Assembly: GCA_026770585.1 (NCBI GenBank)
Contig: MU647129.1
Span: forward strand, 3,621 to 24,976
DNA from: Baffinella frigidus
Lineage: Eukaryota; Cryptophyceae; Cryptomonadales; Baffinellaceae
Direction: 5' to 3'
Length of the DNA stretch: 21,356 nucleotides
Positions 1 through 21,111 of the stretch are shown here, piece by piece. The notes beneath the pieces were generated by a model. It was not told the origin of the DNA. It saw nothing but the letters and a program-made list of their open reading frames with translations, and did not search any database. The translations under genes and the position numbers were made by a program. The stretch's first letter is position 1, and each line of letters begins with the position of its first letter.

Positions 1-427
1 CCCCCTAACCCCCTCAACCCCTTCAACCCTCGCAACCCCAACCCCCAACCCCTAAACTCCAAACCCCCTAAACCCTAACCCCCCTAAACCTGTACACCCC
101 AAACTCCCAAACCCTCAAAAGCCAACCTCTTCACACCTACACCCCAAACACCCAAACCCCGATCGAGACCTGGTATTCCATGTAGGCTTCGGAGGCGGCG
201 ACGCGCGTCTCGGGGGCGCGAAGCAGCGCGTACAACCCCTCGCTAACCCCCTAACCCCCTAATCCCCTAACCCCGCAACCCCCTAAACCCTCTCAACCCC
301 AAACCCCACACCCTGAACTCCAAACCCTCAACCCCCTAAACCATAAAGCCACTAAATCCTCAACTCCAAACCCCTCTCAACTCCAACCCCTCAAACCTCA
401 ACCCTCAAACCCCAAAGCTATCAGGAC
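1..427 (-). repeat. Degenerate telomere-like arrays, C-rich strand on +
   Basis: Imperfect CCCTAAA, CCCCTAA and CCCCAAA words fill this stretch around the exon copy at 170-238. The C-rich strand is on the given strand, opposite to most of the window, so the TTTAGGG sense lies on the minus strand. The array is too degenerate and too interrupted by coding-like sequence to be an active telomere; it reads as intron filler. Confidence 0.7.
170..238 (-). CDS. Exon X21, left copy (C-terminal part only)
   Basis: On the minus strand an acceptor-like GAG precedes GGGTTGTACGCG, and the block ends at CAG followed by GTCTCG, a good donor. The 69 nt give 23 residues in phase 0 at both ends, including YALLRAPETRVAASEAYMEY. 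This matches the second part of the fuller copy at 428-535 almost base for base, and lacks the SLVPPYDAFH part. The gene should continue leftward beyond the window, because this copy ends in a donor and not a stop. Function not recognised. Confidence 0.5.
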
Positions 428-535
428 CTGGTATTCCATGTAGGCCTCGGAGGCGGCGACGCGCGTCTCGGGTGCGCGAAGCAGCGCGTACACCCCGCGC
501 CGCACGTGGAACGCGTCATAGGGCGGGACCAGGCT
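428..535 (-). CDS. Exon X21, full copy
   Basis: The minus-strand block runs from CAG|AGCCTGGTC to GAATACCAG|GTCCTG. It has 108 nt, 36 codons, phase 0 at both ends, and no stop. It begins SLVPPYDAFHVRRG and ends RVAASEAYMEYQ. Of all the exon-like blocks it looks least like simple coiled coil: the PPYDAFH start suggests a structured segment. The two partial copies to its left and right share its two halves and agree in reading frame, which supports coding. I cannot assign a domain family. It is the most downstream complete exon in the window. Confidence 0.6.
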
Positions 536-696
536 CTGCCGCGTGCAGGGGTCGGGGGTGAGCGTTTGGGACTCTCCGCCCGTCGCGTAAACCCTAAACG
601 CGAAACGCTAAATCCGGCCGCCCCTCCCGTCCCATCTGGGGGTTAGGGTTCGGGTGTAGGGTTAGGGTGGGGGGGTTAGAGGAGGAGTGCGTACAC
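536..696. other. Intron-like spacer with repeat orientation switch
   Basis: Between about 590 and 660 the telomere-like words change from the C-rich to the G-rich strand on the given strand (aaccctaaac, then gggttagggttcggg). The spacer also holds a short GC-rich non-repetitive patch. No gene is seen. Confidence 0.5.
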
Positions 697-738
697 CCCC
701 CGCCGCGCGTGGAAGGCGTCGTAGGGCGGGATCAGGCT
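697..738 (-). CDS. Exon X21, right copy (N-terminal part only)
   Basis: The minus-strand block begins after AATCAG with AGCCTGATC and encodes SLIPPYDAFHARRG (14 codons, phase 0). It ends at GGG|GTGTACGC if that GT is the donor. It aligns with the first half of the copy at 428-535; beyond the possible donor the match continues only through VYA before decaying. Differences from the full copy are mostly silent or conservative (V/I, V/A). Confidence 0.5.
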
Positions 739-759
739 CTGATTGCGTTAGGCTTCAGG

Positions 760-1165
760 GGTTAGGTTTGAGGGTTTAGGGTCTCGGGTTTGGGGTTTTG
801 GGTTTTGGGTTTAGGGTTTGGGGTGTAGGGGTGAGGGTTCATGGTTTAGAGTTTGAGGGGAGGGGAGGCACACAGGGGAGGGGTTTAGATGGGAGGGGTT
901 TAGGGTGTAGGGTTTGGGGTGTAGGGTTGAGGGTGTAGGGTTTAGGGTTTAGGGTTTAGGGTGTAGGGTGCATGGTGTAGGGTGTATGGTGTAGGGTGTA
1001 GGGTGTAGGGTGTAGTGTGTAGTGTGTAGTGTGTAGTGTGTAGTGTGTAGTGTGTAGGTTGTAGTGTGTAGTGTGTAGGTTTTAGTGTGTAGTGTGTAGT
1101 GTGCAGTGTGTAGTGTGTAGGGTGTAGTGTGTAGTGTGTAGGGTGTAGGGTGTAGGGGTTGGCAC
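760..1165 (+). repeat. Heptamer arrays TTTAGGG, TGTAGGG, TGTGTAG
   Basis: Arrays of 7-bp units change composition along the stretch: first TTTAGGG/TTTGGGG, then TGTAGGG (about 945-1010), then TGTGTAG (about 1010-1140). The unit length stays seven while the unit sequence drifts in blocks. Long open frames here (TLHTTPY-type peptide) are products of the repeat and not genes. Confidence 0.85.
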
Positions 1166-1218
1166 CGGGCCACGTGAGGCAAAGAGCGCCAGACGCGCAC
1201 GGTCCGCCTCTGTCAACC
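1166..1218 (-). CDS. Exon X20
   Basis: A strong minus-strand acceptor (CTCGCAG) is followed by 53 nt ending CCG|GTGCCAACC. The coding-like frame needs one nucleotide from the previous exon and ends in phase 0. It encodes LTEADRARLALFASRGP, an amphipathic helix followed by a turn. Its start phase matches the one nucleotide left over by X19 at 1670-1721, and its end phase matches X21. A single copy was found. Product unknown. Confidence 0.45.
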
Positions 1219-1267
1219 CTGCGAGGGATTAGGGGGTAAGGGTTAGGGGGTAAGGGTTAGGGGTTCG

Positions 1268-1302
<35 letters not shown>

Positions 1303-1303
1303 T

Positions 1304-1344
<41 letters not shown>

Positions 1345-1540
1345 CGAGAGAGGGTTAGGGTTCAGAGAGAGAGAGAGATGGAGAGAGAGAGAGCGAGCGA
1401 GAGAGCGAGCGGGTTAAGGTTTAGAGAGAGAGGGTTGAGGTTTAGAGAGAGAGAGGGTTGGGGTTAAGAGAGAGAGAGGGTTGGGGTTGAGAGAGAGAGG
1501 GTTGGGGTTGAGAGAGAGGGGGCGACCACGCGATTAAGGA
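1219..1540. repeat. (GA)n microsatellite broken by TTAGGG words
   Basis: GA dinucleotide runs from about 1266 to 1515 are interrupted at intervals by ggttagggtt or ggttggggtt. The alternation suggests repeat expansion inside a telomere-like intron. The flanks at 1219-1265 are TTAGGGGG-like. No exon-like block is seen. Confidence 0.85.
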
Positions 1541-1669
1541 GAGACGCCACGCGTGAAGAAAGAGAGAGCAACCACTTGTTTCAAGAGATAGAGAGGGGGA
1601 AGGGGGAAGGGTGAAAGGGGAAGGGAGGCGGGAACGGAGGGAGGAGGGAGGGGGCGGGGGGGGGGTTAC
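1541..1669. other. Purine-rich intron-like spacer
   Basis: A GA/GGGA-rich stretch on the given strand (a pyrimidine tract in the minus-strand transcript) lies directly downstream of the donor of the exon at 1670-1721. Nothing else is seen. Confidence 0.4.
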
Positions 1670-2670: not shown

Positions 2671-2703
2671 TTTTTTGACGGGGAGCAGGTGAGGGCTCGC
2701 AAC

Positions 2704-2721
2704 CTCCAGCCCCGGCTCAGC
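2704..2721 (-). CDS. X18 microexon-like block, copy 1
   Basis: 18 nt encode AEPGLE on the minus strand, preceded by GGAGAG and followed by GTTGCGAG (GT donor). It is the first of five near-identical blocks between 2704 and 3357. The flanking minus-strand words TGATCGGAGAG and GTTACGAGCC also recur, so what repeats is exon plus splice context. As phase-0 18-mers they could be included or skipped without breaking frame. They could equally be pieces of a non-coding repeat. Confidence 0.35.
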
Positions 2722-2847
2722 CTCTCCAATCACCGATAGGAATTTCAGATACACGCCCGGATTTTAAGTTTGTACCGGGTCGTGACACAATTTAAAAATA
2801 CTCTGGTACAAAACGTAGTAACGGGGGGGGGGGATGAGGCGCGTAAC

Positions 2848-2865
2848 CTCCAGCACCAGCTGAGC
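2848..2865 (-). CDS. X18 microexon-like block, copy 2
   Basis: Diverged copy encoding AQLVLE, with GAG before it and GTTACGCG after it. Confidence 0.3.
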
Positions 2866-2974
2866 CTCTCCGACCACAAGTGGGAATTTGAGAGATACAA
2901 GTCAGGGGTGTACGTTTGTGCCGGGGTTTTCGGTTCGAGGAAAAGGGGGGCAGGTGAGGTGTAGGGGTTGGAAC

Positions 2975-2992
2975 CTCCAGCCCCGGCTCAGC
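2975..2992 (-). CDS. X18 microexon-like block, copy 3
   Basis: Encodes AEPGLE and is followed by GTTCCAACC. Confidence 0.3.
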
Positions 2993-3167
2993 CTCCCCGA
3001 TCACCCCCCGCCCCCCCCCCACGACTGTTGACTAATTCTCTCTTTCTCTTGCTGGTACAGTTGACTAATCAGAGGCGTTCCTGGTACAAACCCTTCCCGG
3101 TTTAGTTACCCCTCCGGTTCAAACCCTGCACGGTTCAGTCAACCGTCATACGGGGGGGGCTCGTAAC

Positions 3168-3185
3168 CTCAAGCCCCGGCTCAGC
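3168..3185 (-). CDS. X18 microexon-like block, copy 4
   Basis: Encodes AEPGLE. This copy alone has a consensus CAG acceptor (GTACGGCAG) and keeps the GTTACGAGCC donor, so it is the best candidate of the five for real use. Confidence 0.4.
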
Positions 3186-3204
3186 CTGCCGTACCGGGAC
3201 CTCT

Positions 3205-3300
3205 CTCCTCGCGCAAACTCGCCACAAGTCGATTGTAAAATCGGTGTCGTGGTACAAATTTAAAACGCTCTGGTACAAAACGTTGTAACAAAACATTGTA
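3205..3300 (+). repeat. Dispersed palindrome-rich repeat, + copy
   Basis: Starts with GCAAACTCGCCACAAGTCGA, continues TTGTAAAATCGG, GTCGTGGTACAAATTTAAAA and CGCTCTGGTACAAAACG. It is the same family as the copies at 17150-17228 and 17325-17402 (same strand) and those in 5041-5970 (opposite strand). The core holds CGTTTTAAAACG-like palindromes and paired GGTACAA words, suggesting a small mobile repeat. Confidence 0.6.
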
Positions 3301-3339
3301 ATTCCTACTTGTGATCTGGCGTGGGGGTGGGCTCGTAAC

Positions 3340-3357
3340 CTCCAGCCCCGGCTCAGC
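3340..3357 (-). CDS. X18 microexon-like block, copy 5
   Basis: Encodes AEPGLE, with GAG before it and GTTACGAGCC after it. Confidence 0.35.
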
Positions 3358-3392
3358 CTCTCCGATCACAAAGTCCGCCTGTACGGGCGAGT

Positions 3393-3567
3393 TAAGGGTT
3401 TAGGGTTTAGGGTTTAGGGTTTAGGGTTTAGGGTTTGGGGTTTAAGCGGTAAAGATTTCAGGCTTAGGTTTAGGGTTCAGGGAACTGACCTAGCGCACAA
3501 CAGGCTTCTCGTCACAAGTAGGAATTTCAGAATTCCTTGTGATCTACGAGGCACAGCCCGACCGCTA
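3393..3567. other. TTTAGGG array and spacer left of MITE copy 1
   Basis: 3397-3480 holds TTTAGGG/TTTGGGG heptamers. 3511-3545 holds words (CACAAGTAGGAATTTCAG, CTTGTGATCT) that also occur near 2400, 2735 and 3301. No gene is seen. Confidence 0.5.
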
Positions 3568-3770
3568 TTGTCGATCTGGGCTTCGCGCGGAATCGAGGTC
3601 AGGTCAGGAAATCAGGAATTTTTCCAAAAATGGACTTTTATGCTATCTTAGGCATGGTTTTTATCTCAAAATAGCATCTCCCACCCATAAGATGACACAA
3701 AAAGACAAAAAAATGAAAAAATGTTGCTGACCTGACCTCGATTTTTTCCGCGCGGAGCCCAGATCGACAA
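3568..3770. mobile_element. MITE copy 1 (TA target duplication)
   Basis: A 203-bp element with terminal inverted repeats of about 30 bp (left TTGTCGATCTGGGCTTCGCG; right end its near-perfect complement), flanked by TA on both sides (3566-3567, 3771-3772). Subterminal GAGGTCAGGTCAG / CTGACCTGACCTC is also inverted. The interior carries TTTTATGCTATCTTAGGCAT and AAAATAGCATC, themselves partly inverted. It encodes no transposase. A second full copy is at 14159-14371. The TA duplication is typical of Tc1/mariner-type and Stowaway-like non-autonomous elements. Confidence 0.8.
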
Positions 3771-3781
3771 TATCCCTCAGC

Positions 3782-3850: not shown

Positions 3851-5040
3851 ACCCCCTGGAGAAGGAGGAGAAGAGCTAGGAGGGCTGACCTCCTAGGGCT
3901 CGTCTTGAGGCTCATAGACGTTTGGATCACCCATCTCTAGGCTGAGAGTATCTAAGGAGAAGTAGAAGAAGAGCCAGGGGGGCTGACCGAGCTCAGAAGA
4001 GGATCGCTGTCAGGCAGCGGGAGCAGGGTTTATAGTTTCTGGTTTCTGGTTTCTGGTTTCTGGTGTACGATTTCTGGTTCATGACTTCTGGTTTCCGGTT
4101 CATGGTTTCTAGTTTATGGTTGGGGGGGCTGACCGAGCGCAAGAGAGGATCGCTTTCAGGCAGCCAATCCCCGAGGTCATCCTGTACTATTTCCTAGCGC
4201 TGCTTCAGTCTATTCGGGATTTCGGGTGTAGCGAGGTGACCCGGAGGGTTTGGGGTAGAGGGGGCTGACCGAGCGCAAGAGAGGGTCGTCCTCCGGCAGC
4301 GGGAGCATGGTTGATTGTTTATGGTTTATTGTTTATTGTTTATTATATAATATTTATTATTTATTGTTTATTGTTTATTGTTTATGATTGATGGTTGGGG
4401 GGACTGACCGAGCGCAGAAGAGGATCGCCTTCTGGTTTCTGGTTTCTGGTTTCTGATTTCTGATTTCTGGTTTATTGTTTGTTGTTTATTGTTCATTGTT
4501 TATTGTTTATGGCTTATAGTTTATTGTTTATTGTTTATTGTTTATTGTTCATGGTTTATGATTGATGGTTGGGGGAACTGACCGAGCACAGATGGTTTCT
4601 AGTTTCTAGTTTATGGTTGGGGGAACTGACCGAGCGCAAGAGAGGATCGCTTTCAGGTTTCTGATTTCTGATTTCTGATTTCTGATTTATTGTTTATTGT
4701 TTATGGCTTATTGTTTATTGTTTATTGTTTATTGTTTATGGCTTATTGTTTATGGCTTATTGTTTATTGTTTATTGTTTATTGTTTATTGTTTATTGTTT
4801 ATTGTTTATGGTTCGGGTTGGGGAAACCGAGCGCAGAAGAGGATCACTTTCAGGCAGCCAATCCCCGAGGTTGTCCTGTACCTGCTTTCCGGACTATTCT
4901 TAAGTCGACACTTTTCTGACGGGTTATTCTTAAGTTGACCCACTGAGCTCTCGAGACACAACGCCGTTCAACGAAGGTATCGCCGGAATGCTTTTGTGTT
5001 TGCAAAGCGGTCCGTGATCGAGCGACACCGCACCTGCCCC
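3851..5040. repeat. GACCGAGCGC blocks separated by TTTCTGG and TTTATTG heptamers
   Basis: Seven copies of a 25-35 bp block containing GACCGAGCGCAGAAGAGGAT or a close variant lie near 3987, 4128, 4264, 4406, 4580, 4629 and 4827. Some carry an extension with CAGGCAGCCAATCCCCGAGG (4160, 4852). Between them the filler is not TTTAGGG but TTTCTGG and TTTATTG heptamers (4027-4130, 4310-4400, 4430-4560, 4660-4815). By analogy the blocks may be decayed exons (minus strand CTGCGCTCG|GTCAG), but I could not settle a frame. 3851-3980 holds two related AGAAGAGC-rich patches. Confidence 0.55.
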
Positions 5041-5421
5041 CCGCTAAAACGTTTTTGCTCCGGCGCGTTTTAAAATCGTACCACACCCCCGAGTTTACAA
5101 TCGTCTTGTAGCGAACGTGGTCCCCTGTACAGCAGGTTACTGACTCTCGCCCCCCAAGAGGCGACACACAGTTATTATTTTTGTACCAGAGCGTTTTAAA
5201 ATCGTACCACGACCCTGAATTTACAACCGACTTGTAGCGAATTTGCGCGACGAGAGTCCCTCACAGTGGACTTCCCAGATCGGTCCATTTATTTTCGCGG
5301 TACTGATTAATAATTGCTCGGTACAAAGACATTTTATTAACCGACAGTTCGACCAGATTTCTGGTCAAAATGTCCTGCGAAGCCCACTGCCCTAAAACCT
5401 AAACCCTGTGCGGCATGGTAC

Positions 5422-5449
5422 CTGCCCCCGCGCCGCCAGAAGTGACACA
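5422..5449 (-). CDS. X17 28-nt microexon, copy 1
   Basis: On the minus strand the acceptor TATAGCAG is followed by 28 nt and the donor GGGGCAG|GTACCATGCC. In the preferred frame (two nucleotides taken from the previous exon, phase 0 at the end) it encodes VSLLAARGQ. Differences between the four copies fall mostly at third positions of that frame (TCA/TCG, CGG/CGA) or are conservative (GTG/TTA), which favours it over the alternatives. The donor context GTACCATGCCG is conserved in all four copies. Confidence 0.5.
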
Positions 5450-5595
5450 CTGCTATAACGTTTTCTACCGTTGTTAAATTTCTGGTCGAAGTTCCCAGCG
5501 ACGCCCACTGTGTGGATTTCATAGGAGAACGGACTGACAACCGGGTTGTTAAGCCTACGGTATTGACTACGGTAGGACGCTGAACGGCATGGTAC

Positions 5596-5623
5596 CAGCC
5601 CTCGCGCCGCCAGAAGCGATAAA
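5596..5623 (-). CDS. X17 28-nt microexon, copy 2
   Basis: 28 nt between TTAGCAG and CTG|GTACCATGCC, encoding LSLLAARGL: one conservative and one non-conservative change relative to copy 1. Confidence 0.45.
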
Positions 5624-5737
5624 CTGCTAAAACGCTGTTAAAACGAGCGTTTTTAAATCGCACCCCCCCCCCCTCGCGTTTACAACCGACTTGTAGCGGG
5701 TTTGCACGACGAGAGAGGCCCCTGTACGGCATGGTAC

Positions 5738-5765
5738 CTGCCCCCGCGCCGCCAGAAGCGACACT
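5738..5765 (-). CDS. X17 28-nt microexon, copy 3
   Basis: 28 nt between TTTTTAACAG and CAG|GTACCATGCC, encoding VSLLAARGQ. It has the cleanest pyrimidine-tract acceptor of the set. Confidence 0.5.
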
Positions 5766-5991
5766 CTGTTAAAAACAAATCAAAAACACACAGAGCTTTT
5801 TAAAATTGTACCACGAACTCGAGCTTACAATCGACATGTAGCGACTTTACAATCGACTTATAGCGAGTCCCCTGTGCAGCATGTTACCTGCCCTCGCCCC
5901 TCGCCCATAAACCTTAAAAACCGTTATTAAATTGTACCACGAACTCGACTTTACCATCGACTTATAGCGAGTCCCCTGTACGGCATGGTAC

Positions 5992-6019
5992 CTGCCCCCG
6001 CGCCGCCAGAAGCGACACG
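5992..6019 (-). CDS. X17 28-nt microexon, copy 4
   Basis: 28 nt between GAGGTTCAG and CAG|GTACCATGCC, encoding VSLLAARGQ. The acceptor lies downstream of a long C/T tract in the sense strand only in part; the region to its right (6020-6065) is C-rich on the given strand. Decayed copies lacking one splice site are visible near 5018, 5138-5166 and 5892-5910. Confidence 0.5.
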
Positions 6020-6065
6020 CTGAACCTCCCCTCCTCCCCCCCCCTCCCCGCGCCCCGCCCGGGCG

Positions 6066-6390
6066 TGACAGCCTGCAAACCGGTTCAGGATTTAGGATTT
6101 AATATTTAGGGTTTAGGGTTCAGGTTTGAACTTTCAGGTTTCAGGTTTCAGGTTTCAGGTATTAGGTTTGAGGTTTGGGGTTTGAGTTTTGAGTTTTCAA
6201 GGTTTGAGTTTTGAGTTTTGAGGTTTCCTCCTCCCCGCGCCCTGCTCCGGCGTTACAGCCTGCAAACCGGCTTAGGATTTAGGGTTTAGGGTTTAGGGTT
6301 GAGGGTTCAGGGTTTTAGGTTTTGGGTTTGGGGTTTGGGGGTTGGGGTTTCGGATTTGCGTGCTTCACTTTGTTTTCTCAAACAGCAAAC
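6066..6390 (+). repeat. TTTCAGG / TTTGAGT / TTTAGGG heptamers
   Basis: Heptamer filler is split by a duplicated unique word (CAGCCTGCAAACCGG at 6069 and 6255, each preceded by a CCCCGCGCCC-like patch), showing a local duplication with period of about 186 bp. No exon is seen. Confidence 0.6.
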
Positions 6391-6985
6391 ACGATTTAGG
6401 GTTTCGGATTTACAGGAGGCGGCGGTAGCGGCTTCGCTTTAGGGTAGATGGTTTAGGCTATAGACTGTGGGGTTTGGGGCTTTGGGTTTTGGGTTTTGGG
6501 TTTTGGGTGCAGGGTTTCGGGTTTCGGGTTTCGGGTTTCGGGAGTACAGGAGGCGGCGGTTTATGATTGAGGGTTTAGGGTTTAGGGTTTGCGCCCCGCC
6601 CCGGCCTCTGGTGAGGGGTTCGGGGCGAGGGGTATGGAGATTAGAGTTTGGGGTTGTAAGGTTGAGGGTCTAAGGTTTAGGGTTTGGGGGGGCTAGTACG
6701 GAGTTGGACGGCGGCGGCGGCGGGAGCGGCTTGGCTTTAGGGCAGATGGTTTAGGCTATAGACTGTGGGGTTTGGGGCTTTGGGTTTTGGTTTTTGGGTT
6801 TCGGGTTTCGGGTTTCGGGAGTAGAGAAGGCGGCGGCAGCTGGGGCGGCTTTGTTTTAGGGGTTTAGGCTATAGACTAAACGGTTTCGGGTTTAGTTTTT
6901 AGGCTGTAGACTATACGGTTTCGGGTTCAGGGTGTAGAGAGTAGGGAGTACAGGAGGCGGCGGGAGCGGCTTGGCTGATGCGGGG
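6391..6985 (-). CDS. X16 Pro/Ala-rich exon-like blocks (about five copies)
   Basis: Blocks near 6408-6431, 6547-6560, 6694-6731, 6828-6856 and 6949-6976 share, on the minus strand, CCGCTCCCGCCGCCTCCT followed by GTACTCC or GTAAATCC (donor-like). The rightmost block has acceptor GCATCAG and 23 nt up to CCTCCT|GTACTC, which would start in phase 0 and leave two nucleotides, as X17 needs. Frames are low-complexity, so coding is uncertain. Between the blocks the words TTTAGGCTATAGACT recur four times, so exon-like block and spacer are duplicated together. Confidence 0.3.
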
Positions 6986-6989
6986 ATTG

Positions 6990-7207
6990 GGATCTCCGTA
7001 GGGGGAGGTGTCGCCTGAATTAGGGTTAAGGTTTGGAGTTTAGGGTTTGAAGTTTAGGGTTTAGGGTTTGGGGTTTGGGGTTTGGGGTTTGGGGTTTGGG
7101 GTTTGGGGTTTGGGGTTTAGGGTTTAGGGTTTATAGACTAGGGTTCAGGAGCGAGAGGAGAAGATGTTTAGGGTTTAGGTTTTAGGGTTTTGGGTTGTTC
7201 GGTTTTG
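6990..7207 (+). repeat. TTTGGGG heptamer array
   Basis: Mostly pure TTTGGGG units (7060-7115) flanked by TTTAGGG units. No exon is seen. Confidence 0.8.
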
Positions 7208-7262
7208 GGGCTTACGGGGGGCGGGGAGGATTGCGGGGGGGATGGAGGGGGCGTGGATGAGG
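7208..7262 (-). pseudogene. X15 remnant (3' tail only)
   Basis: Matches the tail of the exon at 7430-7528 (SSTPP... and the CCCCCCGTAAGCCCC donor context) but lacks the EIHQ...EEDQ part. Confidence 0.45.
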
Positions 7263-7429: not shown

Positions 7430-7528
7430 GGGGGGTGGGGAGGAGTGCGGCGGGGATGCAGGGGGCGTGGATGAGGCGAGGAGTTGGTCCTCCTTCATGT
7501 CGACGCGTCGCCGCATTTGGTGGATCTC
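7430..7528 (-). CDS. Exon X15, copy 1 (long tail)
   Basis: Acceptor CAACCCCAG, then 99 nt to CCC|GTAAGCCCC, phase 0 at both ends. It encodes EIHQMRRRVDMKEDQLLASS and a Pro/Ser tail (TPPASPPHSSPPP). The first 22 codons align with the other X15 copies; the usual ACT|GTATCAG donor is lost and an excellent GTAAGC donor further on takes over. It is the most downstream copy of the array. Confidence 0.55.
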
Positions 7529-13418: not shown

Positions 13419-13421
13419 CTA

Positions 13422-13475: not shown

Positions 13476-13520
13476 TAGCCTTTTCGGTCTTGTGACCTGA
13501 GGTTGGGGGAGGTTCGTAAC

Positions 13521-13591
13521 CTGAGACGGGCCTGATCCTCGACGCGGCGTCTTGCCACCTGCTCCTCCCTCTCGCGCTTCCCCCCCGTTCC
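13521..13591 (-). CDS. Exon X9, copy 2
   Basis: Donor CTCAG|GTTACG is clear. Two acceptors are possible: TTCCTAG giving the 71 nt listed (phase 0 start), or an internal GAGAG that starts one nucleotide into the Arg codon and suits joining to copy 3. It encodes KREREEQVARRRVEDQARL plus AG of an Arg codon. It aligns throughout with the second half of copy 3. Confidence 0.5.
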
Positions 13592-13735: not shown

Positions 13736-13827
13736 CTGAGGCGGGCCTGCTCCTCGGCGCGGCGGCGCGCAGCCTGCTCCTCCTGCGCTCGCTTTTCTCC
13801 CTTCTGCTGCGCGATCAGCGCCTCCAC
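13736..13827 (-). CDS. Exon X9, copy 3 (complete)
   Basis: Acceptor GGCTTCCAG, 92 nt, donor CTCAG|GTTTTG. It starts in phase 0 and leaves AG. It encodes VEALIAQQKGEKRAQEEQAA then RRRAEEQARL, a long charged coiled coil. The start phase matches X8 and the AG left over joins the G that begins X10 to make AGG (Arg). All three X9 copies share the CTCAG|GTT end. Confidence 0.6.
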
Positions 13828-14098
13828 CTGGAAGCCCCGGGGAACCCTTTCATTTGATTGACGATTTTCGGCAACAAAAAATGGCGCAAGTGCTTCGTTT
13901 AATTAGCTTTTGGCAGTGAAAATTACTACACAGTTGCAAGCTCCAGGGGGTCTTTTTATTTGATTATGTACTTTCAGGATCTGAACTGGCCGCACAGTAC
14001 GACTTTTAGGCCAAAAAGTCGTACTTTGCGGCCATTTTTCCAAAAACAAAATCTGAAAATAATCATTTTTCCAGCCTCGAGTGGGGGAAAAAGGTCAC
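13828..14098. other. AT-richer intron with hairpin
   Basis: Unique, AT-richer sequence with duplicated words GGCARTGAAAATTAC (13913, 14126) and TCATTTGATT/TTATTTGATT. It contains the hairpin listed at 13987-14034. No exon signal. Confidence 0.4.
13987..14034. mobile_element. 48-bp hairpin
   Basis: TGGCCGCACAGTACGACTTTT pairs with AAAAGTCGTACTTTGCGGCCA (one mismatch) around a 5-6 base loop. It could be another minimal foldback element or an RNA hairpin within the intron; no target duplication is obvious. Confidence 0.5.
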
Positions 14099-14137: not shown

Positions 14138-14158
14138 TACCGTTCAGCTTTGCTACTA

Positions 14159-14371
14159 TTGTCGAAATGGGCTCCGCGAGGAATCGAGGTCAGGTCAGGA
14201 ACGAGCCGGATTTCTCAAAAAATGAACTTTTATGCTATCTTAGGCATTGTTTTTATCCCAAAATAGCATCCCACACCCATAAGATAACACAAAAAGGCAA
14301 AATTTCCGAAAAATGTTGGATCCGTGCCTGACCTGACCTCATTTTTTCCCGCGCGGAGTCCATTTCGACAA
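14159..14371. mobile_element. MITE copy 2 (TA target duplication)
   Basis: 213-bp element flanked by TA (14157-14158, 14372-14373). Ends TTGTCGAAATGGGCTCCGCG and its complement; subterminal GAGGTCAGGTCAG / CTGACCTGACCTC; interior TTTTATGCTATCTTAGGCAT shared with copy 1 at 3568-3770. The terminal arms differ from copy 1 at the same positions on both sides (GATCT versus GAAAT), so each copy has kept its arms matched. No coding capacity. Confidence 0.8.
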
Positions 14372-14440
14372 TACTAGTAAGATGATTCTATGCAGTAACA
14401 TTCAGTGCCCGTACTACGTATATGCGTCCCCCGGAGCAAC

Positions 14441-14619: not shown

Positions 14620-14664
14620 CTTTTCGGCCTCACGCTCGGAGATTTCGTCAATGAGCGCGTGCAC
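14620..14664 (-). CDS. Exon X8, copy 3 (complete)
   Basis: Acceptor AAACCAG, 45 nt, donor AAAAG|GTCGAAAC, phase 0 at both ends. It encodes VHALIDEISEREAEK, two heptads of coiled coil. Both splice sites are close to consensus. Confidence 0.55.
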
Positions 14665-14785
14665 CTGGTTTGGGGTTTGGAGTTTGGGGTTTAGGATTTA
14701 GGGTTTGGGGTTTGGGGTTAAGGGTTTGGGGTTTGGGGGTTTAGGGTTTGGGGTTCGGAGATGAGGGGTTAGGGTTTGGGGCCAC
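14665..14785 (+). repeat. TTTGGGG / TTTAGGG filler
   Basis: Heptamer arrays only. Confidence 0.75.
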
Positions 14786-14818
14786 CTCCGCCTCGGCTTG
14801 CTCGCCCACGCCCGCCTC
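14786..14818 (-). CDS. Exon X7, copy 1
   Basis: Acceptor AACCCGCAG, 33 nt, donor GCGGAG|GTGGCC, phase 0 at both ends. It encodes EAGVGEQAEAE. Small, acidic; copy 2 at 14936-14954 supports it. Confidence 0.45.
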
Positions 14819-14935
14819 CTGCGGGTTTAGGGTTTAGGATTAAGAATTAAGAATTTTGGTTTTCGGTTTCGGGTTTCGGGTTTAGGTTTCAGGGTTTAGG
14901 GTGGGGTTGAGGGTTTTGGGGTTAGGGTGTATTAC

Positions 14936-14954
14936 AATTTTTTTCGCCCGCCTC
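14936..14954 (-). pseudogene. Exon X7, copy 2 (truncated)
   Basis: Acceptor CCACGCAG, EAGEK codons, then AATT|GTAATAC. 19 nt, out of phase with copy 1. Confidence 0.35.
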
Positions 14955-14999
14955 CTGCGTGGTTGAAAGCCTTTCAGGGTTTCGGGTTTCGGGTTTCGG

Positions 15000-15165
15000 G
15001 TTTAGGGATTTTGGGGTTGGGGGTTTGGGGTTTGGGGTTTGGGGTTTGGGGTTTGGGGATTAGGGATGAGGGTTTGGGGATTAGGGATGAGGGTTTGGGG
15101 ATTAGGGATGAGGGTTTGGGGATTAGGGATGAGGGTTTGGGGATTAGGGATGAGGGTTTGGGGTT
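15000..15165 (+). repeat. 21-bp compound heptamer repeat
   Basis: Five near-perfect copies of a 21-bp unit made of three heptamers (TTTGGGG, ATTAGGG, ATGAGGG), preceded by TTTGGGG units. It shows higher-order repeat formation within the heptamer filler. Confidence 0.9.
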
Positions 15166-15373
15166 CATTCACAAGGGCGCCATGCCATCCTCGTCTACGC
15201 GGCTGGCACGGCTTAGGGTTTAGGTATATGGTTTGGGGGGGTGGATCCCTGGAGCGCGGGCCATCGCACGACCCCCCCCCCGGTACAAACCTGGCCCCTC
15301 CGGTAAACCCCAATAAACCCTAAGCGATCGGAGGCTTCAATAAACCCTAAGCGATTGGAGGCTGGAAGCTTGC
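15166..15373. other. Spacer between X6 copy 1 and X7
   Basis: 15175-15212 weakly resembles the start of X6 (ARRRxMG-like codons, damaged by a stop). 15240-15360 carries CCCCGGTACAAACCTGGCCC and AATAAACCCTAAGCGATC, repeated at 15520-15600 beside X6 copy 2, so exon and spacer duplicated as one segment of about 250 bp. No further gene. Confidence 0.4.
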
Positions 15374-15469
15374 CTGGAGAACAAGCCCGGCCTCGCGTGC
15401 GAGTTGGCGAGCCTGCTCGAAGGCGTCTTTCCCCAGGGCCAGACGCGCCTTCCCCATCTTCCTTCGCGT
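15374..15469 (-). CDS. Exon X6, copy 1
   Basis: Acceptor GCAAAAAG, 96 nt, ending CTCCAG|GCAAGC: a GC donor with otherwise perfect consensus. Phase 0 at both ends. It encodes TRRKMGKARLALGKDAFEQA then RQLAREAGLVLQ, a long amphipathic helix. If the GC is not a donor, the frame runs on for about seven codons to a TAG. Confidence 0.55.
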
Positions 15470-15621
15470 CTTTTTGCAAACGCCGATTTGTACCACGAGG
15501 GGTCCGCCGCACGACCCCCCCCCGGTACAAACCTCACCCCTCGGTTCATCCCCAATAAACCCTAAGGGATCGGAGGCTTCAATAAACCCCAAGCGATCGA
15601 AGGCTGGAAGCGAAAGCTTGC

Positions 15622-15723
15622 CTGGAGAGCAAGGCCGGCCTCGCGAGCGAGTTGGCGAGCCTGCTCGAAGGCGTCTTTCCCCAGGGCCACACGCGCCTCT
15701 TCCATCTTCCGCCGCGCCTCCGC
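15622..15723 (-). CDS. Exon X6, copy 2 (complete)
   Basis: Acceptor GTTCGTAG, 102 nt, again CTCCAG|GCAAGC. Phase 0 at both ends. It encodes AEARRKMEEARVALGKDAFE then QARQLAREAGLALQ. Comparison with copy 1 shows mostly silent or conservative change and identical donor words. Confidence 0.6.
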
Positions 15724-15838: not shown

Positions 15839-15844
15839 GGCTAG

Positions 15845-15883
15845 GGCAGCGCGTGCCTCCCCCATCTTCCGCCGAGCCTCCGC
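15845..15883 (-). pseudogene. Exon X6, copy 3 (5' half)
   Basis: Acceptor TGGCGTAG followed by AEARRKMGEARAA; no clear donor before the filler. The KDAFEQARQLAREAG half is missing. Confidence 0.45.
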
Positions 15884-15966
15884 CTACGCCACGTCAGGGC
15901 ACACGTGAGATTCTCACAACACGAAACCTGGTACAAATCCTGGGAATCAATTCTAGGTTTTTTTTG

Positions 15967-16008
15967 CAGGGCCAGACGCGCCGCCCCCATCTTCCTCCTT
16001 GCCTCAGC
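15967..16008 (-). pseudogene. Exon X6, copy 4 (5' half)
   Basis: Acceptor GGTCGTAG followed by AEARRKMGAARLAL, then an A-run (GCAAAAAAAACC) that could be a GC donor. Confidence 0.45.
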
Positions 16009-16049
16009 CTACGACCACGATTCGGGTGTAGGGTGTAGGGTGTGGGGTT

Positions 16050-16091
16050 TAGGGCCGAAGGCGCCTCCCCCAGCTTCCTTCGCGCCTCCAC
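16050..16091 (-). pseudogene. Exon X6, copy 5 (5' half)
   Basis: Acceptor GGGAGCAG followed by VEARRKLGEAPSAL; merges into CCCTAAACCCC filler without a donor. Confidence 0.45.
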
Positions 16092-16178
16092 CTGCTCCCA
16101 TACAGATAATTAGAACCCAAGGGGCCGTCGCTATTGCTGGTTACCAAAAAGGCATGCGCACGAGCATCGGTGACAAAC

Positions 16179-16212
16179 TGGGAGCCTCCCCCATCTTCCT
16201 CCGCGGCTCCGC
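16179..16212 (-). pseudogene. Exon X6, copy 6 (5' half)
   Basis: Acceptor GGTGTAG, AEPRRKMGEAP, possible donor CCCA|GTTTGTC with one nucleotide left over, out of phase with copies 1 and 2. Confidence 0.4.
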
Positions 16213-16516
16213 CTACACCCTTACATATAATTAGCAATAAATACAGGTCCATGCCTGCAGCTAATTACCGTAAATACGAACGGACCTACCTACAGCTAAT
16301 TAAGGACCCGTAATTACTGCGCCCTTGCAGATAATGAGAAACCACTGGGCCCTGATTCAAAACCATGGGGATAATTGCAAAGGCATCGAGCGAGCACCAA
16401 TCGCACACTTAGAGCCATAGTCGCTGCTGGATACGTTCTTCAGCTTGGGTCCGTGGATATTTCGGGTCCGTGGATATTCCGGATCCGTGGATACGCGGAG
16501 GTGGCAGGCTCATAAC
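16213..16516. other. AT-richer spacer, possible small exon
   Basis: 16220-16320 has several CAGNTAATTA words and no heptamers, so it is unlike the other introns. 16411-16443 on the minus strand reads AEERIQQRLWL after an AAG, but then a stop; the alternative frame is open with donor TAA|GTGTGCG. I could not settle it. 16447-16497 is a tandem GGGTCCGTGGATATT repeat (three units). Confidence 0.35.
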
Positions 16517-16648
16517 CTCGCCCGCGCGGCGCCTTCCCTCCGCCTGGACCGCTGCCGCCTGCACCAGAGCGTCGACGCGCTCGAGCTCTCTGAGGGCGTG
16601 GATCGGCACGTCGGCCAACCCCTCGAGGAGGGTCGCCGATCGCTCCAC
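16517..16648 (-). CDS. Exon X5 (single copy)
   Basis: Acceptor GACACCAG after a pyrimidine-rich ACACCAACACC tract, 132 nt, donor GGCGAG|GTTATGAG, phase 0 at both ends. It encodes VERSATLLEGLADVPIHALR, ELERVDALVQAAAVQAEGRR, RAGE: two helices separated by a Pro-containing turn. It is the only family between X1 and X18 for which I find one copy alone, so it may be a position where duplication is not tolerated. The 44-codon open frame with two consensus splice sites makes it one of the firmest exons. Confidence 0.6.
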
Positions 16649-16654: not shown

Positions 16655-16890
16655 TCGGTGTTGGTGTTGGTGTTAGGGTTGGGTTTGGGGTTAGGGACGG
16701 GGAGGGTTAGGGTTTGGGGTTGAGGGTTTGGGGTTTGGGGTATAGGGTTTAGGGTTTGGGGTTTGGGGTTTGGGGTTTCGTGTTTCGTGTTTGGGACATA
16801 GGGTTTGAGGCTTAGGGATTTAGTGAACAGGGTTTGGTGCATAGGGTTTAGGAGATAAGGGCAAGGTTTCACGGTTTTAGGGCTCAGTGT
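16655..16890 (+). repeat. GGTGTT and TTTGGGG/TTTAGGG filler
   Basis: A short GGTGTT hexamer run (16650-16675), then heptamers to about 16790 and degenerate GGGTTT words. Confidence 0.75.
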
Positions 16891-16894
16891 TTAC

Positions 16895-16948
16895 CTGTGC
16901 GCGGGCTTCCGGGACAAAAGCGTCGGCGAGGAGCGCTTCGGCCGCCGC
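16895..16948 (-). CDS. Exon X4, copy 1
   Basis: Acceptor CCGGGAAG, 54 nt, donor GCACAG|GTAAACAC (consensus). Phase 0 at both ends. It encodes AAAEALLADAFVPEARAQ. Compared with copy 2 it lacks the ALSAAE insertion, i.e. an internal six-codon difference. Confidence 0.6.
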
Positions 16949-16953
16949 CTTCC

Positions 16954-17023
16954 CGGACTATTCTTAAGTTGACACGCAGGGTCCCCGGTACGAATCCGTC
17001 AACTTTGGAGCGAAAAGGAGCCC
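16954..17023. repeat. Short inverted-repeat family, second copy
   Basis: GGACTATTCTTAAGTTGACA and GGTACGAATCCGTCAACTTT resemble 3782-3850 and lie directly upstream of the X4 copy 1 acceptor. Confidence 0.5.
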
Positions 17024-17053: not shown

Positions 17054-17125
17054 CTGGGCGCGGGCCTCGGGGACAAACGCGTCGGCGAGGAGTGCTTCGG
17101 CCGCTGAGAGCGCTTCGGCTGCCGC
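17054..17125 (-). CDS. Exon X4, copy 2 (complete)
   Basis: Acceptor ACCCCACAG, 72 nt, donor GCCCAG|GTTCAACC, phase 0 at both ends. It encodes AAAEALSAAEALLADAFVPE then ARAQ. Silent third-position differences from copy 1 (GTC/GTC, CCC/CCG, GAG/GAA, GCC/GCA) support coding. Confidence 0.6.
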
Positions 17126-17149: not shown

Positions 17150-17228
17150 AGCAAACTCGCCACAAGTCGATTGCAAACGCGAGATCGTGGTACAATTTAA
17201 TAACGCCCTAGTACAAAAGGTTTTAACG
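17150..17228 (+). repeat. Dispersed palindrome-rich repeat, + copy
   Basis: GCAAACTCGCCACAAGTCGA, then TTGCAAACGCGAGATCGTGG, TACAATTTAATAACGCCC, TAGTACAAAAGGTTTTAACG. It ends in a G run. Confidence 0.6.
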
Positions 17229-17239
17229 GGGGGGGGGTT

Positions 17240-17282
17240 AGCGTCGGCGAGGAGCGCTTCAGCCGCCGAGAGCGCTTCCGCC
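17240..17282 (-). pseudogene. Exon X4, copy 3 (3' truncated)
   Basis: Acceptor CCCAAAG, AEALSAAEALLADA, then GCTAACCCCC where the others continue with FVPEARAQ. No GT; a GC donor (GAC|GCTAAC) is conceivable. Confidence 0.4.
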
Positions 17283-17324
17283 TTTGGGGTTTGGATTTAG
17301 GGTTTAGGGTTTGGGGTTTGGTCC

Positions 17325-17402
17325 GCAAACTCACCGCAAGTCGATTGTAAACTCGAGATCGTGTACAGTTTTAAAACGCCCTGGTACAAAACGTTTTAAC
17401 GG
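17325..17402 (+). repeat. Dispersed palindrome-rich repeat, + copy
   Basis: Near-identical to 17150-17228 (CAAGTCGATTGTAAACTCGA, CCCTGGTACAAAACGTTTTA). The fragment GGTTAGCGTCAT at 17410 is a leftover of an X4 copy, so repeat and exon were duplicated together. Confidence 0.6.
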
Positions 17403-17738: not shown

Positions 17739-17816
17739 CTGGAGGGTGGAGCGGCGGTCATCCTCTTCCCGCTGGGCGGCCAGCGCCAGGCTCCTCTGTT
17801 CCGCCCGCCACGCCAT
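17739..17816 (-). CDS. Exon X3, copy 1 (complete)
   Basis: Acceptor AACCATAG, 78 nt, donor CTCCAG|GTCCCGTC, phase 0 at both ends. It encodes MAWRAEQRSLALAAQREEDD then RRSTLQ, an amphipathic charged helix. It is the only one of five neighbouring copies with an open frame and a consensus donor. The internal ATG is not taken as a gene start, because the AG before it is in splice context in the other copies too. Confidence 0.6.
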
Positions 17817-18768: not shown

Positions 18769-18827
18769 CTCCTCCTGACGCATTTCCTCTTCCTGAGCGA
18801 CGATCTCTGCCTCCAACTTTGCGTCCC
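18769..18827 (-). CDS. Exon X2, copy 1
   Basis: Donor GAGGAG|GTATTAAT is clear. Two acceptors are possible: GCAAAG, giving 48 nt in phase 0 (LEAEIVAQEEEMRQEE), or GGGGAG eleven bases upstream, as listed. The short form fits the phases of X1 and X3. Highly acidic coiled coil. Confidence 0.5.
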
Positions 18828-19015: not shown

Positions 19016-19038
19016 TTCGGGTGCAGGGTTATTGACAC

Positions 19039-19094
19039 CTCCTGACACATCTCCTCTTCCTGAGCGACGATCTCTGCCTCCAATCTTGCGTCCC
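19039..19094 (-). CDS. Exon X2, copy 2
   Basis: LEAEIVAQEEEMCQE then donor GAG|GTGTCAAT. One codon shorter than copy 1. The change GCAAAG to GCAAGA moves or destroys the nearer acceptor, so it may be out of frame. Confidence 0.4.
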
Positions 19095-19139
19095 CTCCCC
19101 TCCTCGCCAGGGGACTAACGTCTAGGGCTCAGGGTTGTA

Positions 19140-19350
19140 GAGCAGGGTTCAGGGTTGGGGGTGTAGGATTATATGGTATAGGGTAGATGGTATAGGGTAT
19201 AGGGTATGGGGTATGTGGTATAGGACACAGGGTATATGGTATAGGGTGTAGGGTGTAGGGTGTAGGGTACAGGGTGTAGGGTACAGGGTGTAGGGTGTAG
19301 GGTGTAGAGTACAGGGCGTAGGGTACAGGGTTTGTAGAGGGTGTGGGGTT
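19140..19350 (+). repeat. TATAGGG and TGTAGGG filler
   Basis: Heptamer filler as at 18890-19015, duplicated together with the exon (period about 270-320 bp). Confidence 0.75.
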
Positions 19351-19358
19351 ATAGATAC

Positions 19359-19417
19359 CTCCTCTTGACGCATCTCCTCTTCCTGAGCGACGATCTCTGC
19401 CTCCAACTTTGTGTCCC
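19359..19417 (-). CDS. Exon X2, copy 3
   Basis: LEAEIVAQEEEMRQEE then donor GAG|GTATCTAT; acceptor CACAAAG gives 48 nt in phase 0. Protein identical to copy 1 with silent changes (GAA/GAG, CAG/CAA). Confidence 0.5.
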
Positions 19418-19429
19418 CACCTCTCCTTG

Positions 19430-19670
19430 CCTACCGTAGGGTTTAGGGTTTGGTGTTTAGTGTTTAGTGTTTAGTGTTTAGTGTTTAGTGTTTAGGGTTT
19501 AGTGTTTAGGGTTCAGGGTTTGGGGTTTAGGGTTTGGGATTTAGGGTTTAGGGTTTAGGATTCAGAGTGTCGAGTTTGGGTTCTAGGTTTCGAGGTTTAG
19601 GGTTTGGGATTATGGATAAGACGCACCAGGGTTCCGGATTCCAAGGTTTAGGGTTTAGGATTCAGGGTGT
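19430..19670 (+). repeat. TGTTTAG and TTTAGGG heptamers
   Basis: About seven TGTTTAG units (19450-19505), then TTTAGGG/TTTGGGG units. No exon. Confidence 0.8.
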
Positions 19671-19675
19671 GCAAC

Positions 19676-19740
19676 AGGGTGCGCGCTGCGGCGAGGAGTC
19701 GCCCCGCCTCGGCCGCGTTGTGCTCTTCACGCCAAAAGGC
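19676..19740 (-). CDS. Exon X1, copy 1 (5' end unclear)
   Basis: AFWREEHNAAEAGRLLAAAR then T and part of Leu, with donor CCT|GTTGCAC or an unrecognised one a base later. The only acceptor-like AG is GTAAAG at its start; homology to other copies continues about seven codons further upstream. Confidence 0.4.
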
Positions 19741-19815: not shown

Positions 19816-19894
19816 GGGCGCGGGAGATTCGTGATCTGAACCGCGTGACTCCTGGTCAAAATCGGGGGTGGGATCGGGGGAGTTTGGACGCAAC

Positions 19895-19959
19895 AGGGTG
19901 CGCGCTACGGCGAGGAGTTGCGCCGCCTCGGCAGCGATGCGCTCCTCGAACCAAGAGGC
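19895..19959 (-). CDS. Exon X1, copy 2 (5' end unclear)
   Basis: ASWFEERIAAEAAQLLAVAR then TL, with donor CCT|GTTGCGTC as in copy 1. Same GTAAAG start. Confidence 0.4.
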
Positions 19960-20097
19960 CTTTACTCCTTCCGGATTCAACACGCGGGTTTGCACCAGGG
20001 GGGGGAGGGTGGTTTCCGGCGACTGTAGTACAAATCGGGGGTTTCGGGTTGAGTTTTCCCTATTCCAGTAGGGGAGTTCGGACGTACCAGCGTGCGT

Positions 20098-20153
20098 GCG
20101 GCTGCGAGGAGTTGTCCCACCTTGGCCGCGTTTCGCTTTTCGCTCTTAGAGGA
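20098..20153 (-). CDS. Exon X1, copy 3
   Basis: SSKSEKRNAAKVGQLLAAAR then TL, donor ACGCTG|GTACGTCC (near consensus). Starts at GTAAAG. Several charge-changing differences (E to K) relative to the other copies. Confidence 0.45.
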
Positions 20154-20257
20154 CTTTACGCGTCCGGGTGATACCAGGCGGGGGGGGCGATTTCGGGCGA
20201 CGCCTGGTACAAATCGGGGGTGGGATGGGGAACATCGGAGAGTTTAAGGGTGTGCAC

Positions 20258-20349
20258 CAGAGTGCGTGCGGCGGCGAGGAGTTGGCCGGCTTCGGCGGCG
20301 TTACGCTCTTCGCGCCAGACCCGCTTCGCCGCACGTGCCGCCTCCAACC
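20258..20349 (-). CDS. Exon X1, copy 4 (reference)
   Basis: Acceptor CTCTCAG, 92 nt, donor ACTCTG|GTGCACAC. It takes one nucleotide from upstream (frame GG TTG GAG) and ends in phase 0. It encodes LEAARAAKRVWREERNAAEA then GQLLAAARTL, a basic/acidic amphipathic helix with a conserved Trp. Of the eight copies or fragments this one has both the full length and a simple donor, so I use it as the start of the chain; the true 5' end of the gene lies to the right of the window. Confidence 0.55.
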
Positions 20350-20415
20350 CTGAGAGAGCGAGATGGGAGGGGGGGGGTTATTGTAAAGCAACACCAGACC
20401 ACACCAGCTGCAGAC

Positions 20416-20558
20416 CTGCGTCAGGCCTCTAGTTCTGCCCATAGAGCGAACGCGGGAGAGAGGTTTAGAGTTTAGAGAGGCTGAGAGGAGCTGGCCGTCT
20501 TCGGCGGCGTTGCGCTCTTCGCGCCAGACCCGTTTCGCCGCACGTGCCGCCTCCAACC
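20416..20558 (-). CDS. Exon X1, copy 5 (extended form)
   Basis: Acceptor CTCTCAG, 143 nt, donor ACGCAG|GTCTGC. LEAARAAKRVWREERNAAED, GQLLSASLNSKPLSRVRSMG, RTRGLTQ: the last 21 codons come from what is intron in copy 4. 143 is not a multiple of three, so copies 5 and 6 cannot both be included in frame unless another donor is used. Confidence 0.45.
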
Positions 20559-20624
20559 CTGAGAGAGCGAGGGGGGGGGGGGGAGGTTAGTGTAAAGCGA
20601 CACCAGACCACACCAGCTGCAGAC

Positions 20625-20767
20625 CTGCGTCAGGCCTCTAGTTCTGCCCATAGAGCGAACGCGGGAGAGAGGTTTAGAGTTTAGAGAGGCTGAGAGGAGC
20701 TGGCCGGCTTCGGCGGCGTTGCGCTCTTCGCGCCAGACCCGTTTCGCCGCACGCGCCGCCTCCAACC
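20625..20767 (-). CDS. Exon X1, copy 6 (extended form)
   Basis: 143 nt, nearly identical to copy 5; the 5' ends of copies 4, 5 and 6 are exactly 209 bp apart (20349, 20558, 20767). Acceptor GTCGGCAG. Same donor ACGCAG|GTCTGC. Confidence 0.45.
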
Positions 20768-20879
20768 CTGCCGACAGACCGTAGAGTGTAAGAAAGAGAG
20801 AGAGGTTTTGTGTAAGGCCCCACAACCTCAGACTCCAGCCCTGCCGATCAAGAGTGCTATATTTACTGTAAAGCGAAAC

Positions 20880-20904
20880 TTTTGGAGTTGTCCGGCCTCC
20901 AACC
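20880..20904 (-). pseudogene. Exon X1 fragment
   Basis: Acceptor CTCTCAG and LEA codons joined by deletion to GQLQK-like codons (GGAGGCCGGACAACTCC). About 65 bp of the exon are missing. Confidence 0.5.
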
Positions 20905-20970
20905 CTGAGAGGGCGAGAGGGGAGGGGGGGGGCTACTGTAAAACAATACCAGACCACACTAGCTGCAGAC

Positions 20971-21111
20971 CTGCGTCGTCTCTAGTTCTGCCGATTGAGT
21001 GAACGCGGGAGAGAGGCTTAGAGTTTAGAGAGGTTGAGAGGAGTTGGCCCGCCTCGGCGGCGTTACGCTCTTCGCGCCAGACCCGTTTGGTCGCACGCGC
21101 CGCCTCCAACC
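20971..21111 (-). CDS. Exon X1, copy 7 (extended form, 141 nt)
   Basis: Acceptor TATCGGCAG, donor GACGCAG|GTCTGC. LEAARATKRVWREERNAAEA, GQLLSTSLNSKPLSRVHSIG, RTRDDA plus one nucleotide. A 2-bp deletion relative to copies 5 and 6 makes the length a multiple of three, so this copy alone of the extended forms could splice in frame to another X1 copy. It is the most upstream exon seen. Confidence 0.45.

Follow-up and report, generated by a model that had tools for sequence, protein, structure and literature searches.

In a 21,356-nucleotide (nt) stretch of the cryptophyte Baffinella frigidus (contig MU647129.1, positions 3,621-24,976; the whole stretch is called the window hereafter), the minus strand carries 22 re-derived exons, most of which are accompanied in their flanking introns by further same-sense copies that are almost always cut at one end: copies located upstream of the intact exon keep the acceptor and lack the 3' end, and those located downstream keep the donor and lack the 5' end. 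This pattern is not restricted to the gene of the window, as it recurs elsewhere in the genome, in four kinesin genes. We consider it probable that the window holds part of one intron-rich protein-coding gene, and that the partial copies derive from local tandem duplications in which one breakpoint fell inside an exon.

The chain was built by aligning the copies of each exon family, locating their common acceptor and common donor, and choosing the copy that has both. It runs from E1 (20258-20349 in window coordinates; all exons and copies below are on the minus strand) to E22 (428-535), and comprises 1715 nt, or 571 residues, without a stop codon, both ends of the gene being missing. Intact exons were delimited at E1 (92 nt), E3 (17739-17816, 78 nt), E4 (17054-17125, 72 nt), E6 (15622-15723, 102 nt), E8 (14620-14664, 45 nt), E9 (13736-13827, 92 nt), E10 (12728-12889, 162 nt), E11 (11623-11716, 94 nt), E12 (10992-11044, 53 nt), E13 (9887-9956, 70 nt), E14 (9300-9392, 93 nt), E15 (7430-7528, 99 nt, running into a GTAAGC donor), E17 (5992-6072, 81 nt), E18 (4828-4881, 54 nt), E19 (3340-3378, 39 nt) and E22 (108 nt). 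E5 (16517-16648, 132 nt), E20 (1670-1721, 52 nt) and E21 (1166-1218, 53 nt) are present in a single copy; E16 (6952-7014, 63 nt) is proline-rich. E2 (18769-18816, 48 nt) is one of three full-length copies and is a candidate for the copy in use, the two others lying within 19346-19430 and within 19029-19123, the latter with a displaced acceptor AG. Finally, E7 (14786-14818, 33 nt) has a very short upstream acceptor-bearing copy within 14900-14980, below the 18-nt limit of the search described below. With the sites chosen in this way, all 22 acceptors are AG, and the donors are 20 GT and two GC (E6 and E11). Coding sequence makes up 8.6% of the 19.9-kilobase span, and introns measure 121-1771 nt; the longer ones may hold further exons. 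The assembly comprises 382,457,362 bases in 1364 contigs; this contig, of 24,976 bases, terminates where the window does, and on its other side the 3620 bases preceding the window read N. Since E22 has no stop codon, the gene continues toward this N part.

Codon composition supports the frame of the chain. By a rule that needs no training, which takes the frame with the lowest guanine plus cytosine (G+C) content at position 2, the frame of the chain is recovered for 18 exons out of 22 (binomial p = 4e-6), the failures being E14, E16, E20 and E21. A leave-one-out codon-position model picks the chain frame for 21 of 22, compared with a mean of 7.4 and a maximum of 17 in 1000 random frame assignments. 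Judged by stop codons alone, one start phase out of three is open throughout, and the expected number of such chains is 0.012; we dropped this phase agreement as the main evidence because it is weak and partly circular, the exon borders having been set with the frames in view, and relied on codon composition instead.

The original prediction, made from the same DNA, had proposed a single minus-strand gene assembled as a phase-compatible chain from 21 families of micro-exons. As it gave no coordinates of single exons, it can be compared with ours by lengths only. A phase-compatible chain passing through one complete copy per family was indeed recovered, and splice sites together with codon composition now support one spliced gene of 22 exons. 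Seventeen of the 21 lengths recur (the first 14 and the last three), but the stretch of 72, 23, 28 and 18 nt between them does not: the 72-nt readings are 3'-truncated copies of E15, and the stretch is replaced by exons of 99, 63, 81, 54 and 39 nt, those of 81, 54 and 39 nt (E17 to E19) having no counterpart of that length in the earlier chain. The notion of micro-exon families is not supported either, as only three of the 62 further copies described below keep both ends (two of E2, and one of E18 with a displaced acceptor AG), and nearly all others are without a splice site on the side predicted. Judged from the DNA, the chain is real, yet most of the supposed family members are not micro-exons.

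Copies were identified by searching each exon in both flanking introns (expectation value E <= 0.05, 18-nt limit). This gave 69 rows, of which seven were dropped by judgement and 62 counted. The dropped rows are two self alignments (14746-14858 and 3300-3418), four matches that run mainly through telomere-like stretches (15135-15200, 14702-14762, 6713-6808 and 6390-6508) and a 63% match of E10 to a copy of E9 (13527-13586); rows 6713-6808 and 6390-6508 also span short E16-like pieces, and copies of E16 are thus undercounted. The 62 copies stem from 18 of the 22 exons. E5, E20 and E21 have none in their flanking introns, and E7 has none of at least 18 nt once the dropped rows are removed. Among the 30 upstream copies, 26 keep the acceptor and are cut at the 3' side, two are full (both of E2), one is cut at both ends and one is cut at the 5' side, this lone row being part of a degraded, near-full copy of E3. 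Polarity is reversed downstream, where 31 of the 32 copies keep the donor and lack the 5' end, and one, of E18 (4098-4187), is full. The copies sit within the introns beside their own exon, in direct orientation, at a spacing of roughly 100-350 bases. When exons were compared with the entire window (E <= 0.001), 57 matches were local and on the same strand, one was distant and none was inverted, in keeping with the earlier description of same-sense, exon-like blocks that each stay in their own neighbourhood.

The best populated families illustrate this arrangement. E1, whose copies show a 209-base period, has three upstream copies that keep the acceptor and miss the 3' part (20479-20598, 20688-20770 and 21038-21114) and three downstream copies that miss the 5' part and keep the donor side (20086-20143, 19890-19953 and 19661-19734). 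Four 3'-cut copies precede E6 (16184-16216, 16051-16093, 15967-16048 and 15843-15888) and a 5'-cut copy follows it (15340-15471), while E11 is preceded by two (12116-12174 and 11921-11977) and followed by three (11424-11503, 11335-11372 and 11242-11286). Six copies of E15 lacking the 3' end lie between 7585 and 8373, four of them cut at the identical exon base (66), and a 5'-cut copy is found downstream (7201-7262). E17 has one upstream 3'-cut copy (6227-6299) and four copies that keep the donor side and miss the 5' end (5120 to 5768), four of the same kind belong to E19 (2673 to 3187), and E22 has an upstream 3'-cut copy at 673-741 and a downstream 5'-cut copy at 131-238.

Kinesin genes were used for comparison in the rest of the genome, as their conserved motor-domain motifs identify the intact copy. 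A search of the readable genome gave 45 kinesin matches, with genes in pieces. Four genes were selected non-randomly, two because overlapping matches were already listed (C506 and C112) and two because several exons lie close together, within 8 kb (C101 and C123). They provided 10 exon segments, two of which have no proper acceptor as delimited, having been started at the profile match, and copies were searched at E 0.005. Nine of the 10 segments have copies, 33 in total: 14 of the 18 upstream copies keep the acceptor and are cut at the 3' side, 13 of the 15 downstream copies keep the donor and are cut at the 5' side, and the remaining six are cut at both ends. None is full, none has the wrong polarity and none is on the opposite strand. 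In C506, five upstream 3'-cut copies accompany the exon encoding VDLAGSE, together with downstream copies that keep the donor; the P-loop exon is flanked by one copy of each kind, and the exon encoding HIPYRDSKLT is followed by two 5'-cut copies. In this gene, a repeated unit of about 369 bases holds two versions of the DLAGSE exon. As a separate observation, a sampled stretch of the genome (L021, 6980-7868) contains repeated short exon-like pieces following AG, and resembles the window in this respect.

Such a geometry is what tandem duplication across an intron-exon boundary would generate. A duplication with breakpoints in the exon and in the upstream intron would leave, upstream of the intact exon, an acceptor-bearing copy without its 3' end, and one with breakpoints in the exon and in the downstream intron would leave, downstream of it, a donor-bearing copy without its 5' end. 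Deprived of one splice site, a partial copy could be skipped by the spliceosome, and the intact chain would retain its single frame. In simulations of tandem duplication in which exactly one complete exon remains, 0-4% of copies fell on the wrong side, compared with 33-38% when copies were inserted at random nearby places. Whole exons are expected to be duplicated as well: a calculation with random breakpoints and 200-base units predicts that half of the events are full, and at most four full copies are seen beside 37 distinct truncations (the probability of four or fewer out of 41 is 4e-8 for 200-base units and 0.08 for 100-base units). As full copies are rarer than random breakpoints give, whole-exon duplications seem to have been mostly removed by selection, one-sided copies having stayed.

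Several observations weigh against this explanation, or at least against its simplest form. In the tandem-duplication simulation, 12-18% of the copies are full-length with damaged flanks, more than the three of 95 seen, and the full copies of E2, the degraded near-full upstream copy of E3 and the full-length copy of E18 at 4098-4187 depart from the rule of one missing end on the predicted side. The in-phase GT excess behind upstream cuts in the window, detailed below, would suit a use as exons. A further departure is in the type of substitutions. In the window, the ratio of nonsynonymous to synonymous differences (pN/pS) between copies and intact exon is 0.25 for upstream as well as for downstream copies, the corresponding kinesin values being 0.13 and 0.20. 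Neutral copies of the window exons, simulated beside a constrained intact exon under the search settings of the window, give 0.61-0.67. Of 60 copies that span 12 codons or more, 14 combine a pS of at least 0.3 with a ratio of at most 0.1, a combination found in one of 284 simulated copies; these 14 amount to about nine independent cases, as some arrays repeat one event. For codon positions 1, 2 and 3, mismatch rates reach 0.097, 0.069 and 0.221 among window copies, and 0.037, 0.059 and 0.255 among kinesin copies. Neutral junk derived from the exon itself would be expected to show, at positions 1 and 2, about half the synonymous rate or more. The bias is also present when fragments are compared with one another, and amino-acid change is near zero in the copies of E14, of E4 and of the SSRSH exons of C101 and C123. 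Per aligned site, the introns flanking the copies show differences of 0.21 and 0.25, close to the 0.24 of position 3, the values for positions 1 and 2 being 0.11 and 0.08; in nine of 26 rows, picked by eye for their clean flanks, the bias is milder, with 0.11 in introns, 0.10 at positions 1 and 2 and 0.19 at position 3. These values do not fit copies that were identical to their exon at birth and neutral afterwards, as tandem duplication within one chromosome would have it. The pattern of differences indicates that either many copies would have acquired a large share of their divergence before the cut, or the fragments would be constrained.

In the first case, many copies would have been made from exon versions already diverged at synonymous sites, and for this reason our preferred, though tentative, duplication route is unequal exchange involving homologous chromosomes or haplotypes that have diverged; granted the rest, we place it somewhat short of an even chance. 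Diverged homologues as a source would explain the synonymous bias. Allelic diversity usually remains below a synonymous divergence of about 0.5, and it also counts against this route that divergence up to about that level would be required. Moreover, neither a second haplotype nor a paralogue of the window gene was found in the readable assembly, where all 25 matches of the spliced protein lie on its own contig; this negative is weak, 15 of 20 sampled stretches being wholly N. The PRP8 domain, used as a conserved test gene, has no match in the readable genome.

Other origins can be confronted with the same data. If the copies were plain neutral junk, produced by replication slippage from the same exon of the same chromosome and drifting freely thereafter, polarity and locality would be accounted for equally well; in addition, changes private to a fragment are nearly as frequent at codon position 1 (0.040 per site) as at position 2 (0.044), which is how unconstrained sequence behaves. 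They are still commoner at position 3 (0.074), and the gap between the observed and simulated pN/pS values is such that we hold this origin to be unlikely. An assembly artefact, in which several diverged haplotypes or strains contributed pieces that were placed end to end when they should have been merged, would account jointly for geometry and synonymous bias, and 15 of 20 sampled stretches consist entirely of N. It is at odds with the common breakpoints and regular arrays (the four E15 copies cut at base 66, the 209-base period of E1 and the unit of about 369 bases in C506), and we rate it a little lower than neutral junk. In Dscam, clusters of mutually exclusive exons consist of tandem same-sense copies at one site of the gene, and the tandem same-sense families found at 18 of 22 exons of the window resemble such arrays, from which each transcript would take one member. 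Dscam copies are complete exons, whereas those of the window almost all lack one end: both ends are kept in three of the 62 copies of the window and in none of the 33 kinesin copies. Mutually exclusive exons are thus a most improbable explanation here.

It is also conceivable that the copies are functional and maintained by selection on protein sequence, whether spliced to new partners as alternative exons, used as alternative first or last exons, or drawn on as donors in gene conversion of the intact exon. The low pN/pS, which holds for fragments among themselves, and the near absence of amino-acid change in some copies agree with such a role, as does the presence of potential splice sites at the cuts. 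An in-phase, open GT exists within 60 nt in 18 of the 26 upstream 3'-cut copies of the window, and an in-phase, open AG near the cut in 21 of the 31 downstream copies (examples are the copies of E4 at 16873-16945, of E9 at 13518-13586 and of E6 at 15340-15471). Furthermore, of the 21 upstream copies with a GT past the cut, 14 have the first one in phase, a count that becomes 10 of 16 when repeated arrays are merged (p = 0.016). Against this role, AGs near downstream cuts show no preference for a phase (36, 35 and 28), and in the counts of GTs near upstream cuts (19, 11 and 10) the copies of E15 and of E1 repeat one event each. Among kinesin copies, three of nine have an in-phase first GT, and five of 14 have no GT within 45 nt; with window and kinesins pooled and arrays merged, the first GT is in phase in 12 of 24 (p = 0.07). 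An in-frame stop lies within 50 nt of the cut in 11 of the 26 upstream copies, and kinesin motor exons allow little room for variants of this kind. The signal behind the upstream cuts is weak and left our assessment unchanged: functional copies are as unlikely an explanation as neutral junk. A broader version, in which half-exons under long-term protein-level selection would be the rule in intron-bearing genes, as a store for renewing or varying the intact exon or as alternative exons, is slightly more doubtful still.

Duplication by tandem events with one breakpoint inside an exon, the reading that we retain, has precedents at the level of single genes. In a published case (PMC4974935), a local tandem duplication with one breakpoint in the exon leaves a small exonic segment in an intron beside the intact exon, a geometry that matches the upstream 3'-cut copies of the window. 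That case involved a single event in a single gene; here, 18 of the 22 window exons and nine of 10 kinesin segments are concerned, often with several copies, on both sides, many of them strongly diverged at synonymous sites. The AGGT proto-splice model (PMC2891723) invokes tandem duplication of coding sequence for novel intron positions in Drosophila; it shares with our proposal a tandem duplication of which one copy is lost to an intron, but it creates new intron positions within coding sequence, whereas here existing introns appear to grow. Duplication of coding sequence, or of a segment spanning the border of intron and exon, is already known. In searches of an open-licence literature library, we noticed only cases of tandem-duplication introns in single or few genes, and no genome with such copies around most examined exons on the sides expected for them.

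The pattern hints at how introns of this genome grow. If the assembly is right, they constitute an archive of tandem duplications around most of the exons examined, and the copies allow one to gauge how often small duplications arise, how long they are and what becomes of them. The side of truncation reveals exon borders without RNA, which opens the way to gene annotation from sequence only, and indeed it altered exons 15 to 18 of the original prediction. As for the synonymous bias, it poses a puzzle whose two answers would be large-scale recombination between hidden diverged haplotypes, or the retention of exon pieces supposed to be junk.

The predicted protein is rich in Ala (25%), Glu (18%), Arg (13%) and Leu (10%) and poor in Pro and Gly over residues 1-407; next come a stretch rich in proline and a tail that differs from both. 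It had been thought to be a coiled coil, but none of 13 sliding windows of residues 1-407 has significant heptad periodicity (lowest p 0.074), with a simple periodicity measure and not a dedicated predictor; at most, a helical scaffold may be inferred. The view that it belongs to no recognized family was borne out: Pfam returned one sub-threshold match (E 0.098, 13.4 bits for a cut-off of 25), PDB two chains at a sub-threshold E of 0.073, and the protein database no relatives, whether among 7994 scored candidates (E <= 0.001) or, with residues 470-571 as the query, among 724 (E <= 1). In viral contigs, no relatives were found with the exon 15 pattern, and none of 50 stretches was related to E1-E6. 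The residues ending E17 to E22 matched two loci out of 17 stretches, both on phage contigs; this match of 24 residues with 63% identity spans the E18/E19 junction (4828-4881 and 3340-3378), its E-value covers the candidate stretches only, and we judged it to be due to chance. Rfam gave no match at gathering scores.

The window also contains repeats of other kinds. Telomere-like heptamers cover 20% of it and 2% of its exons. They were considered as mediators of the breakpoints and rejected, as a word of this type lies near nine of the 57 cut ends, fewer, not more, than the 32% of the background. They are degenerate, strongly one-stranded and mainly in introns, GGGTTT[ACG] occurring 101 times per 10 kb on the plus strand and NAAACCC 17 times; in five further stretches of the genome that are at least partly readable, the density is 30-241 per 10 kb. 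A short element of about 210 bases with inverted repeats, which is probably a small transposon, is present at 3565-3772 and 14156-14373 (82% identical), with a third copy at the locus L017 (4190-4397, 90%); a distant DNA comparison of this element with phage records gave no match. Two short interspersed elements are shared with other loci, one at 10830-10972 (L034, 3175-3322, 84%) and 10850-10977 (L021, 4467-4595, 87%), the other at 16924-17018 (L034, 77%) and 16943-17018 (L032, 80%). A 31-base tandem array (2495-2668, 5.6 copies, 91% matches) has relatives at 3212-3289 and 17154-17400, and inverted ones between about 5032 and 5972. Tubulin genes are present in the assembly, and over the 417 codons compared, two beta-tubulin genes (L009 and L010) show 48 differences at third positions and none at first or second ones. 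Near-perfect palindromes, about 90% self-complementary, lie at 13419-13478 (60 bases) and 13984-14037 (54 bases), an exact 42-base duplicate links 21143-21184 to 21216-21257, and a run of C occupies the very end of the contig (21341-21356).

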